From Hysterangium stoloniferum (Eukaryota; Basidiomycota; Agaricomycetes; Hysterangiales; Hysterangiaceae), in NCBI GenBank assembly GCA_015178975.1, contig WHVD01000014.1:806001-870000 (forward strand): 64,000 bases of DNA, written 5' to 3'. Both the position numbers and the translations under genes were made by a program. The notes under the pieces were generated by a model. That model saw nothing but the letters and a program-made list of their open reading frames with translations, made no database searches and was not told the origin of the DNA. Of the stretch, positions 34,369 through 39,531 are shown one piece after another (positions within the stretch are counted from its first letter, which is position 1; each line of letters starts with the position of its first letter).

Positions 34369-34527
34369 GGGTGAGCCTAAATACCCACTCTGACGTGGGA
34401 ATATTACATTAGGTGACAGCACCCACATGCTTTGTAACACATATTCGCGTCGTTTGCATCGCGTTTGTTTGGTCACACCATCAAATTAAATTAATTTTCA
34501 CCAGATGACTCAGATATCCACATAATT

Positions 34528-37500
34528 ATGATAGTGGAAGCAGTGAAGCTAGCTATCAAGCGACTCCTCACTGAAGAAGTATACTCTGAAAACCCTTATT
34601 GTTTTCAGTTGCCAGGTGACACTTGGAAGGAATGGTTGAAAATACAATCTCGAATGACCAATTGGCGTCTTAAAAAACATTATGTTCCCAGTATGTGCCT
34701 GCTAGAATTAACAAACCACATCTAATATGAATATATTCAGAAAAAGTGTTACGACCGGACAATCCCGCCAGACTCCAGGCACTAACCCATACGCCCCCAC
34801 GCGCTACAAGCACCAATCGTCTGTTTATAGGATTTCCCGCCCGGACTCCGTTACGTCAAGACTCGTTACGTTCGACCTCATTACGACACATATCAGTCAC
34901 CGGACTTCCCCTGGACTCCGTCTCTGTCTATGTCTGTCTTCATCCCACACATCAGTCACCGGTCCCCGCTTAGAATCCCATCACCGCTCTAATCGAGCCC
35001 TGTTCCCGTTTTAGTCAAATGACCTGTCACGATTTAGGACTCCGCTCCCGCTCCGTTTCCCATTATGGGTTATGCTTTGTCACGATTCGGACTCCGCTCC
35101 GTTCCGTCCCGTTCCTAACACCAATTTGGTGTTTACTATTCCCATTTTATGTTTTGTTAGTTTTGTTTCGTTATTACTGGATTTGGTATGTCATGCATTC
35201 CATGGTCTATATAAACTGGCAGATGTTGTACATACAATCCAGTCAGAAAATTAGCTTAGATTCCCCCCAGTAATCTAATAATATTTTCCGCTCTAAAACC
35301 TTACTCGATTCACATCGCTCACACTAGTCGGAGCCCACGGGCTCCAGCGCATCTATCTCTCTCAACCAACTCGACTCACGACCCACGACCTCCAACTTAC
35401 GACCCACGACCTGACTTACGACCTACGACCCACGAACCCCCACCCGGACTCCCCGGGATCCCCGTCCATCCGTTTGAAATTGGACAACACGATCTAGTGA
35501 GGGCGCAGCCTATAAGCTGAAGCCAAGTCCTACCGGATATCCCGCGGGTTTCTCCGGAGACCCGGCCTGTGTGTGTATCCTAACAAAAAGACACTACACG
35601 GCCAAGTAGATATTTGTGGAAAAACACCTATGAGTGTGACCATGCTGGTTCATACCGATGTCAGACTATCAAGGATACAAGTCCTAGCAAACAACGCTGA
35701 CGTAGTGCAAGTATCAAATGTGGTTGCAAGGCAAAGGTACATATATCACAACTCGTGGATGTGACAGGGGTGCAGGTTGAATATCATTGGACGCACAATG
35801 GTCATGGTCTGTAATTTTAGTACATTGATAAGGTTTTGTGATAATTAAAGAATATGACAGATCCTGCTTCTTTGAATGGTATGAAAGTCTCAAGGAGTCC
35901 AAATGAGATAGGACAATGGCTGGATGATAAAATAAACAAGGGCTTTGATCAGAAATCAATCAAAGCCATACTTCGAATGACCAGTGAAGAATTATCTGAG
36001 GTGTGTTACTGAGAATCTCATCACTATTACTTATCTAAGGCTTATACTATTTGCAGATCACAGCAGAAGTAAAAGAAATGCCATTTAGTCTCAAGATCAG
36101 TTTCAAGGATATCTACAATGCCGCACAAAGAAAAGCAAATAAAGATACATTTCTGGATGAAAATGTAGATGAGAGTCTCCGGTTATGGCTTGTAAAACTT
36201 CAAGAAAAGGGGTGGAAAGTAACACATGAGGCAACCCAAGGTGAAGAAGCTTGAGGAGGATACATGATAGCTTTATGCTCATCATGGCAGTGTCAGGTTA
36301 GTAAATATTTTTATTTCGTGTATTAATATCACAGACACCCTAAATTACTCTAGTTAATGCAACAATATGGTGATACAGTCTGCTTAGATTCAACCCACAA
36401 TATGTCCCATGGAAAAAATGGAGAAAACATATATTTGAGTACTTTGTTGGGTAGAGATCGCATTACTGGCAAAGGAGTACCATTGGGCTTCCTACTCACA
36501 AACCTTGAATCTCAGTAAGTGTCACAATTTATAAAAGTTTATTCAATTCTTCTCATGTTCTGGTGTTTAGTTATCCATTGAAGCAATTCCTGGAGTGGAT
36601 GCGACAGAACTGCTGTTTTGATCCCCACACAATTATGATAGACTGTTCCGACACAGAGGCCTTGGCTATTACCTCAGCATTCTCTGACGCTCCAGTACAT
36701 ATATTGTACTGCTATTGGCATCTTTGGCAGGCCTGGCACAAAAACATCAAAGCAAAGGTACTGTCTTTTATCGTCATTTAAAATGGTTTTTTTTTTTTCA
36801 ATTTTCTGCCAGATTGTTCTTAAGCACATGTCTTGCAAGGAAGACTGTGCTGAAACTTTGCATGATATTCAAATCACATTGTGGGGTTTGCTCAAGGCTG
36901 AAACACTAAAGGAATTTGATAATAAGTGGGAAGAAGTATAGATAGAGTGGCCAGATCAGCCTATTTGGTTGCAATACATGGAAAGGGAGTGGGTGTCACG
37001 CAAGGAACATTGGGTGAAAGCATGGCGCAAGGTACATAAGTGCTTATTCCATTGTAATTTAAATTCAATTTTAATCATGGTTTGATAGCATGCACACTAC
37101 GGTATTGATACCAACAATTATATTGAAAGCTGGCATGCAAATCTGAAGAAAAACTATATTGGTTGAATGCAGAAGCAACGAATAGACTATATTATTAGAA
37201 TTTTAATGCAAGATGTTGAACCAGATTACATGTGGTCACATCTTCACGTTGGACTTGGTTTCAAACAACGAACACTCTGCAAGGCAGAACGTGAAGCTCA
37301 ACAGAAAGCAAATGAATTACCATTCGAAGACGCAGAAAGCCAAATTGAGCAATTTGAAAATCAGGTAAGATTTATTCTATAAAAAATGTGGTATTTACTG
37401 AATGTAGTTTAGTTTATAATAGGATCATTCTCACGAGATGACGTCTTTTATACTGTGGAAATCAAAGACAATGGTTTTACTAGATGTAGCTGTCCGACAT

Positions 37501-37820
37501 TTACACAAACTGCACTGGCCTGCAAACATATGTTCCTTGCCCAGCGCATTAGTTCAATGAATATCCACCTCGAACAAACCATACTACCAGTCACATGACC
37601 TCAAAATGAGGCCACATTGGATGCACACAGAGCAGAAAAGCGAGAATTAGTAGGAAAAATATGGACAGAAATGGATAAGTTGGCTAATAGCACTTGGAGA
37701 TTTGTAGAAATGGATGTGGGTCTCGACTCAGTCTCACGATCATCCTTAACACAGCTTTACAGTGCAACAAAAAGTTTAGCTTATCTGAGAAAGGACATTT
37801 TATTGGACAGGCTTGGCTAA
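34528..37820 (+). pseudogene. MULE transposase with FAR1-like and SWIM zinc modules
   Basis: Multi-exon. The N-terminal exon (34528-34691) continues through a GT-AG intron into KDTTRPSRYLWKN and then a zinc module CDHAGSYR...CGCKAK (FAR1/WRKY-GCM1 type). The MULE core follows: first Asp in YGDTVCLDSTHNMSHG, LLGRDRITGKGVPLGFLLTN, second Asp in HTIMIDCSDTEA, the WHLWQAWHKN motif, and the Glu in NNYIESWHANLKKNY. The SWIM finger CSCPTFTQ...CKHMFLAQ is near 37485-37545. Introns are about 50-60 nt. Damage: TGA near 35698, TAG near 36938, TGA near 37164 and a solo LTR in exon 2. Confidence 0.88.
34747..35585 (+). mobile_element. Solo LTR, family TGTTACGACCGGACAATCCC
   Basis: 839 bp ending GTATCCTAACA, flanked by AAAAG (34742-34746 and 35586-35590). 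Inserted at the start of MULE exon 2. The LTR module is at 35499-35530. Related to 49501-49797. Confidence 0.92.
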
Positions 37821-38154
37821 ACATTATGTGGAATATATATATTTATTAATATAATCAAACTTTGATAATCGACATGATGGGAGACGATGCAGTAGAGACA
37901 GAATAGCTACCTGCAAGCAGGCTGTGGCATAGCTCATTCAGGTTCTTGGATTTGACCCGTAGAGTCCAGTGAAAGGGAGTGGTTAGAGTAGGAGGCAGTG
38001 GGAAGATGTCATTTGGAATATAAATGGAAATAGGCCAGGAGTTGCAAGGAAGTCACCGACGATGGTGGGTGGTGAGATGATACTGAGTGTATGATAATTT
38101 GCAAGGGGAGTGAGACAGTTGGTTGTGCAGGCATACAGAACAGTTACAACTCAC

Positions 38155-38592
38155 CTTTGCAATGCTAAATGGATCCAGCGTAATCCGCGAAACAGGCAAC
38201 TCTTCATGCGCCCTCCATGCATTCGTCATACACCACCCTTCGCTTCTCTCATCACCAGAATCAATGCTATATGCTGCAATCACACCGCTTCTCGATCCAG
38301 TCCACAACTTATCCAGCACACCCTCCAACGCCAACACATCTGAATTCGAAATCTTAACAATCCCAATGTAAACGGGTACAGCTTTTCCAGAGTCGAAAGT
38401 ATCCGTGCCCTCTGTCCAGACCGAAATGAAACCACCTTCATGTCCGAGATAGACGCGGTTGGGGTGCAAAGGCAGTACAGCACCGCTTGTCACTGCTCCT
38501 AAGGACTCTGATGGCGTAAGTATCTTCGAGCTGCAATTCGCTGCGAGAATAGGACACATTCGAAATCTAGCTGAGATGTCAGAAATGATAGC
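38155..38592 (-). pseudogene. Captured fragment: WD40-like part of inositol-polyphosphate 5-phosphatase
   Basis: The minus strand encodes NRVYLGHEGGFISVWTEG, LEGVLDKLWTGSRSGVIAAY, then WCMTNAWRAHEELPVSRITL. This matches the beta-propeller segment that precedes the phosphatase domain in OCRL/INPP5-type proteins: 'G..G.I.VW', 'LW.G.R.G.I.VYD' and 'W.AH...V..L..D'. It is bounded by an acceptor (TTCTAG before 38592) and a donor (AAG-GTGAGT after 38155), so one exon was taken whole or nearly so. The phosphatase domain itself is absent. Identification by pattern memory; moderately sure. Confidence 0.65.
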
Positions 38593-38619
38593 CTAGAATA
38601 CACCAAAAACAACACTTAC

Positions 38620-38740: not shown

Positions 38741-38799
38741 ATTATTGTGGTTAGTCCAACACTTCAGCTGGGTTCCCATGTTATTATGAGTGACTGCAC

Positions 38800-39060
38800 C
38801 TTGTGCTGAAAGCTTCGCCAGAGCCAACACTCCATATGAATGAATGTTGTTGTGAGTGTCCTTCAAAAATGCAATGATGTCAGGAATGGCACTCGAAATG
38901 GCAAGTCGAAACTCAACTGTGATTAAATGTTAGCTGGGTTCCCATCTTATTATGAGGCATCTCACCTTGTTCTGAAAGCTTTGCCAGGGCCGAAACTCCC
39001 TCTAAATGAACCCAGGTGTCAGTGTCCTTCAAAAGTGCAACAATATCAGCAATGGCATCC
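38800..39060 (-). pseudogene. Captured fragment: two ARM/HEAT repeats
   Basis: Two 39-residue-type repeats: ADIVALLKDTDTWVHLEGVS/ALAKLSEQ and PDIIAFLKDTHNNIHSYGVL/ALAKLSAQ, each followed by a donor (38961-38965 and 38794-38799). The introns are also similar to each other. It lies between the two groups of GAPDH exons, where GAPDH itself would have its cofactor-domain middle. Confidence 0.8.
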
Positions 39061-39082
39061 GAAACCATTCACGATGAGGCAG

Positions 39083-39300
39083 CCATCCTTTAGTGCAACC
39101 TCACCCTTGAAGCGACCGTGAATGCTTCGAATCGATTGTGGGTAATGGACTTACAACATACTTGGGGTCGAGGAAAGGGCTAAAGTGACATTCAGCTAAA
39201 TTTGAATCCACATGGAAGACGGCTACTTACTCGTTGACTGCAACCACTTCGACATTGTCATATTGCAGAGCATCACGGAGTACAGTAAGGTCAATCTTCA
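39083..39300 (-). pseudogene. Captured fragment: GAPDH N-terminal exons
   Basis: The minus strand shows VLRDALQYDNVEVVAVN, a GTAAGT...TTTAG intron (39180-39230) that splices cleanly to DPFLDPKYV, and then IHGRFKGEVALKDGCLIVNG after a damaged junction. This order and intron phase match a genuine GAPDH gene. The first part of the Rossmann fold (GxGxxG) is missing. Confidence 0.85.
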
Positions 39301-39531
39301 GTGCACTTTGTGCTGTACTTGCAAGGGAATGGGTGGCAAAGTATATTCCTGTATCCCCAGGTCATATTTTTCCTCGTCGCAGAAGATCTGAGTCGTCTGG
39401 TGAAAATTAATTTAATTTGATGGTGTGACCAAACAAACGCGACGCGAACGACGCAAATATGTGTTACAAAGCATGTGGGTGCTGTCGCCTAATGTAATAT
39501 TCCCACGTCAGAGTGGTATTTAGGCTCACCC

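Follow-up and report, generated by a model that had tools for sequence, protein, structure and literature searches.

Pack-MULEs, known from rice, Arabidopsis, maize and tomato, are non-autonomous Mutator-like elements (MULEs) that carry genes or gene fragments (PMC8903248, PMC3310237). The mechanism by which MULEs acquire such sequences was described in 2012 as yet to be understood (PMC3310237). In the fungus Pyrenophora tritici-repentis, a hAT element carries cargo as well as a transposase, with long copies that have the transposase and short copies that lack it (PMC3538342), and the histone H3 gene found in fungal hAT elements was derived from a transcript (PMC6710886). TET/JBP genes have been captured by fungal DNA transposons (PMC12730594), and MULEs of Rhizophagus adjoin expanded gene families (PMC8647823), a related observation but not the same claim. 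For Helitrons of the agaricomycete Pleurotus ostreatus, intact copies are reported to be free of gene fragments from P. ostreatus (PMC4289320). Here we describe a MULE with fragments of several host genes in the agaricomycete Hysterangium stoloniferum. It occupies positions 34369-39531 of the window, the 64,000-nucleotide stretch that was analysed (assembly GCA_015178975.1, contig WHVD01000014.1; C46:806001-870000 in our numbering, in which C numbers are contigs). The searched genome comprises 111 Mb in 554 contigs.

It is very probable that this element belongs to a fungal Mutator-like family that repeatedly copies short host genomic stretches into the interval between the 3' end of its transposase gene and its right terminal inverted repeat (TIR), and moves them as cargo. 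An earlier reading, made from the sequence only, had interpreted the element as a fungal MULE that captures host exons, and this interpretation is supported. Like plant Pack-MULEs, the family has MULE ends, long TIRs and host fragments multiplied at new sites, and its short copies lack the transposase. Unlike them, it lives in a fungus, its longer copies retain the transposase gene, and the nested order of capture is readable. The hAT elements with histone H3, in P. tritici-repentis and Pseudocercospora fijiensis, are also fungal DNA transposons with a host gene between TIRs, but they are of another superfamily and hold a single gene rather than stacked fragments of several. The Helitrons of P. 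ostreatus are likewise agaricomycete elements with captured genes next to their own enzyme gene, but they are rolling-circle elements. Compared by features, with no tree, the element resembles MULE group 35 of Dupeyron et al., a sub-group of plants, Phytophthora, Puccinia and fungi, in its SWIM domain, its weak FAR1-like start and TIRs within 30-220 bp (PMC6446971). In the literature searched, from which subscription journals were mostly absent, no fungal MULE was reported to contain fragments of host genes. The family described here is a cargo-bearing MULE that captured host DNA repeatedly, one piece within another; such capture is well known in plants and has rarely been shown in fungi.

Host-gene fragments and their sources

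MULEs make target-site duplications of 8-11 bp. The window element is flanked by the perfect 9-bp duplication described in the sequence-only reading, with TCCCCACCA identical on both sides, and the TIRs that this reading put at 145 bp measure 147 and 146 bp, long as expected of MULEs, and are 95.9% alike (131 bases align ungapped at 96%). A 44-base pattern for the TIR end, allowing at most 3 mismatches, occurs at 34 places in the genome, and its reversed control at none. These places include C3:77965, C190:338194 and C51:24882, in stretches without a reading of cargo.

Captured fragments are about 67 to 720 bp long and match their source sequences with E values from 4e-9 (the 34-base GAPDH piece) to 0. 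The only genome match that spans the entire 717-base captured GAPDH stretch is on C553, where a full-length gene reads through (Pfam Gp_dh_N at 112 bits on the exons). In the coordinates used for this source sequence (L067), the breakpoints are constant, with a start at 690-691 and an end at 1407 in every copy that retains those ends. The fullest piece, on C79, runs from 691 to 1407 and has the HEAT piece between 1161 and 1164, which our own gene model places in a GAPDH intron. The two groups of GAPDH exons reported earlier are real fragments, but they are a single 717-bp capture that was interrupted later. Intron sequence of GAPDH is alignable between the host gene and the element copies. Because these introns are present in the copies, genomic DNA was captured, in agreement with the capture at the DNA level that had been proposed. 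A deletion of the HEAT end and of GAPDH ~970-1161 is common to the window copy, C533a, C520 and C532.

The phosphatase piece comes from a gene on C179 that has Exo_endo_phos2 above the cut-off (45.2 versus 27 bits) downstream of the captured part, and whose relatives are named inositol polyphosphate phosphatase (best match in Sphaerobolus stellatus, 52%). The earlier assignment to an inositol-polyphosphate 5-phosphatase holds, but its WD40 label is weak, with 13.3 bits for the host open reading frame (ORF) against a beta-propeller model whose cut-off is 80. The piece is inserted in a GAPDH exon at L067 1374-1376 with three extra bases and a 3-bp duplication (CCT); by our reading, it ends directly past a splice donor, within an intron. 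Inverted ends were looked for at this piece and none were found. With all 18 candidates scored, the search gave eight element loci besides the host gene, C470 being merged with C46, and the other eight matches cover just the GAPDH end of the query.

The ARM/HEAT-repeat fragment was recognised correctly in the sequence-only reading. The fragments named there are all present, but a 67-bp DUF6535 piece was missed. The two pieces come from one gene family, with DUF6535 and HEAT repeats. Relatives of the HEAT piece form many arrays on C79, C512, C179, C201, C550 and C176 (best ~80%, with 40 of 253 candidates scored). On C79 (L061-L064), a large, clustered family of genes combines the DUF6535 domain with tandem HEAT/ARM repeats, in places with units every 166 bp. 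For the DUF6535 piece, 40 of 75 candidates were scored: 17 continue into element sequence (one of them, on C132, in a stretch that was not read) and 23 stop at the edge of the piece, 20 of these with exactly identical ends and all at 91-96% identity. Several of the 23 adjoin HEAT arrays, and there the reading enters the DUF6535 domain directly.

Copies with different cargo, which the sequence-only reading had suggested looking for, are found as a sister lineage (C382, C142, C493 and C224), in which a piece of a glutathione S-transferase (GST) gene lies in opposite sense between GAPDH 969 and 1342, with nine extra bases at one end. Its source gene is on C519 (Pfam GST_N_3, 45.7 bits on approximate exons), and with all five candidates scored the search gave two element loci besides the host. 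Parental genes were identified in the same genome for the fragments, those of the HEAT and DUF6535 pieces by family and not as an exact donor.

Copies and order of capture

The GAPDH search (all 24 candidates scored) gave 45 matches. One is the host gene and the rest lie at 22 places, which reduce to 19 loci with GAPDH-derived cargo after merging of those with the same flanks. At least a partial inverted repeat is present in the stretch read at 18 of the 19. The remnant on C531 (L065) has a partial one, and none was seen at that on C511 (L068) in the 1 kb read. C470 is the window locus itself (identical flanks, 99.9% over 5185 aligned bases) and C457 is one end of it, so neither was counted as an additional insertion; C382, C142, C493, C276 and C444 were counted once because one flank is common to all five. 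Among 11 distinct two-ended loci, duplications were scored at 10, that of C279 being left unscored because its left end could not be resolved. Duplications of 8-11 bp are present at eight of the ten, as exact 9-bp duplications at six (window, C388, C13, C118, C533a and C257) and exact 10-bp duplications at two (C235 and C224). The misses are C9, with no exact duplication (8/9 by eye), and the flank of C382 and C142. With 19 GAPDH loci and separate duplications, the cargo has been multiplied by transposition.

The cargo is layered. The DUF6535 and GAPDH pieces are the older layer, common to copies, and the HEAT piece was inserted inside a GAPDH intron. The younger layer was acquired separately, as the phosphatase piece inside GAPDH in the window lineage and as the GST piece replacing mid-cargo in the C382/C224 lineage. 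Outside CpG sites, the copies differ from the host by 0.078-0.124 for GAPDH (eight copies), 0.030 for GST (one copy) and 0.026-0.037 for the phosphatase (five copies of eight loci). From these divergences, GAPDH was captured before GST and the phosphatase, and those two close in time.

Phosphatase with shortened GAPDH is found at C388, C13, C9, C118 and C533b. A deletion that removes the transposase (35719/37837) is common to the first four, and upstream of this deletion C118 additionally has a long stretch of foreign DNA. Short cargo elements that occupy separate sites, with target duplications of their own, have lost the transposase. The copies C388, C13 and C9, without transposase, are non-autonomous as Pack-MULEs are by definition. 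The window copy does not fit that definition; because it retains a broken transposase gene, we call it a cargo-bearing MULE and not a strict Pack-MULE.

The fragment lengths, the extra bases, the small duplication, the loss of DNA at the GST joint and the insertion inside older cargo would fit repair-copying from other loci. Acquisition would proceed while a break or gap within the element is repaired, the template being switched to other loci. The short copies may have been moved by transposase from a copy such as C382.

Other arrangements occur among relatives. In the short relatives L023, L028 and L069, in which the 126-codon GAPDH frame stays open and an intron holds a HEAT piece, the main GAPDH part runs in reverse orientation with respect to the right end, as would follow from a switch between the two inverted repeats. 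A related subfamily on C507 and C517 (L073:1454-2778 and L072:472 onward; by matches also C442 and C135) has no GAPDH match. It carries a segment of ~125 bp that reads like an exon adjoining a splice donor; a 43-amino-acid peptide from the C507 subfamily had no Pfam match.

Transposase, setting and coordinates

The sequence-only reading described a plus-strand transposase with DDE and SWIM motifs. On one piece of it, Pfam gives SWIM above the cut-off (24.5 versus 19.6 bits) and MULE slightly below (26.7 versus 27.6); on a longer read-through peptide, SWIM and MULE are both below their cut-offs (22.2 and 18.9 bits). This peptide has 15 protein matches at E <=1e-20, 11 of the 15 from S. stellatus, 35-57% identical. 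Two homologues carry the source name 'MULE transposase dom...', and among those named for SWIM or MULE the identity is at most 48% where 91-99% of the query is covered and 57% where half is. D, D and E, positioned by eye in CLDSTHN, MIDCSD and NYIESWH, would make up a candidate DDE triad. The transposase is of MULE type. We considered a fungal transduplicating hAT and rejected it, as the window element has neither the hAT transposase nor the 8-bp duplication of such elements.

The window copy is not autonomous, as its transposase is broken by premature stops in the exons, including one more in the zinc-cluster exon. Six copies were compared over exons 36057-37821. Internal stops number four in the window copy and C470, one in C142, two with a frame change in C533a and zero in C382, and C493 is cut off by a contig end. 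In C382, all eight transposase exons examined are without a premature stop. It had been thought unusual for an element with such cargo to carry its own transposase; the gene is indeed present in the window copy, but it is broken there, and the hAT element of P. tritici-repentis is a fungal precedent (PMC3538342).

A solo long terminal repeat (LTR) within the transposase gene is a later passenger, separate from the element proper; its relatives, copies of 94.6 and 95.5%, both lie within the C224 element. An origin search with the 262-bp segment between transposase and cargo gave only family members and weak relatives (all 29 candidates scored). The element splits an ORF (33294-34412 and 39498-39734), which reads like the RNase H part of a probable long interspersed element.

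Table 1. Features of the window element and its immediate flanks, in window coordinates.
Feature	Position	Strand	Basis or remark
Left target duplication	34360-34368	.	TCCCCACCA, exact 9/9
Left TIR, 147 bp	34369-34515	+	TIR comparison
Decayed MULE transposase gene	34536-37820	+	Premature stops in window copy; provisional start
Solo LTR, 839 bp, within transposase gene	34747-35585	+	TGTTA...TAACA, AAAAG both sides
Weak FAR1-like zinc cluster	35629-35811	+	16.2 bits, below cut-off 28.1
DDE-type exons	36354-36515, 36572-36754, 37089-37364	+	Exon reading
SWIM exon	37422-37820	+	Pfam SWIM
Subterminal element DNA, transposase-to-cargo interval	37836-38097	+	Present mainly in family members
GAPDH fragment	38098-38131	-	L067 1407-1374
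Inositol polyphosphate 5-phosphatase fragment, 417 bp	38135-38551	-	95% to host gene on C179
GAPDH fragment with intron	38551-38763	-	L067 1376-1164
HEAT/ARM-repeat fragment	38764-39064	-	~80% to C79 arrays; in GAPDH intron; contains 133-bp direct repeat
GAPDH fragment with introns	39065-39295	-	L067 969-914 and 866-691
DUF6535-gene fragment, 67 bp	39295-39361	+	91-96% to 23 loci
Right TIR, 146 bp	39386-39531	-	TIR comparison
Right target duplication	39532-39540	.	TCCCCACCA, exact 9/9

Alternative explanations and meaning

It is extremely unlikely that the host-gene pieces arrived separately and later, as another transposon or a pseudogene patch that inserted in one MULE copy. The phosphatase piece has a 3-bp duplication at its borders, such as some transposons make, but it is without inverted ends. 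The sequence-only reading had allowed for a later insertion with its own ends; the fragments have none, and their breakpoints are constant inside TIR-bounded units, in copies with their own 9-10-bp duplications at independent loci. Outside element copies, the phosphatase piece matches C179 only, GST matches C519 only and GAPDH matches C553 and the C511 remnant (no TIR in the 1 kb read), and the HEAT and DUF6535 pieces match a large host gene family. Least credible of the alternatives is an origin from spliced transcripts, for which histone H3 in fungal hAT elements is the precedent (PMC6710886), since introns of the host GAPDH gene can be aligned with the copies and the phosphatase piece, by our reading, ends past a splice donor in an intron. 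The co-occurrence of the DUF6535 and GAPDH pieces in copies read at that end might suggest that one complex rearranged locus was captured once, with no series of captures. This is very unlikely, as some copies have GAPDH and GST without the phosphatase, non-CpG divergence differs about two- to five-fold between layers, and no host locus with all pieces in order was found outside TIRs in the cargo searches (for HEAT, 40 of 253 candidates scored).

We also consider it improbable that the cargo is kept for a function, as a chimeric GAPDH/HEAT transcript or an antisense RNA acting on host genes. In C257, C235 and C279, a frame of 126 codons stays open across the GAPDH exons, the HEAT piece being intronic; dN/dS is below 1 (0.27-0.30 versus the host, 0.39-0.51 among themselves), and non-CpG variation affects 9 of 136 columns at codon position 2 versus 34 of 233 in introns. 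However, constraint on the host gene itself enters into the comparison with the host, the three copies have one rearrangement in common and therefore share ancestry, and the window copy has a broken frame. Against a neutral simulation with the same mutation types, the deficit of amino-acid changes is not significant (P 0.09-0.16 versus the host, 0.23-0.91 for comparisons inside the group). A neutral copy would acquire one or more stops with a probability of 0.35-0.47, so the open frames are unsurprising. Purifying selection on the GAPDH piece was rejected, the pattern of codon position 2 and dN/dS being explained by the simulation. The cargo thus seems to be decaying free of selection. In the GAPDH cargo of eight copies, 34-50% of the host CpG sites are changed (23 of 68 in the window copy), a loss that would fit the pattern expected of methylated repeats.

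Several points weigh against repeated capture by a family of MULEs. The exact HEAT donor copy was not found among the 40 of 253 candidates scored, the best being ~80%. The flank of C382 and C142 shows a duplication of only 4 bp, and for this reason C382 may have lost its original flanks; its first transposase exon could not be resolved. For the sister transposase loci C190, C441, C524 and C168, the absence of GAPDH is an absence from the match list. The repair mechanism is suggested by the joints, and no intermediate was seen. Repeated capture nevertheless remains our strongly preferred reading. A wider proposal is possible but rather doubtful, namely that agaricomycete MULEs are a working exon-stacking system. 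In it, elements with an open transposase would use repair to add further genomic fragments within older cargo, several lineages doing so in parallel, and would give rise to short chimeric elements whose transcription might yield new spliced genes.

Capture of gene fragments by MULEs has been documented mainly in plants. In Hysterangium, the order of capture, the source genes and most of the joints are legible in a single compact fungal family of few copies, one of which has eight open transposase exons. This makes a model of capture by repair testable in a fungus.

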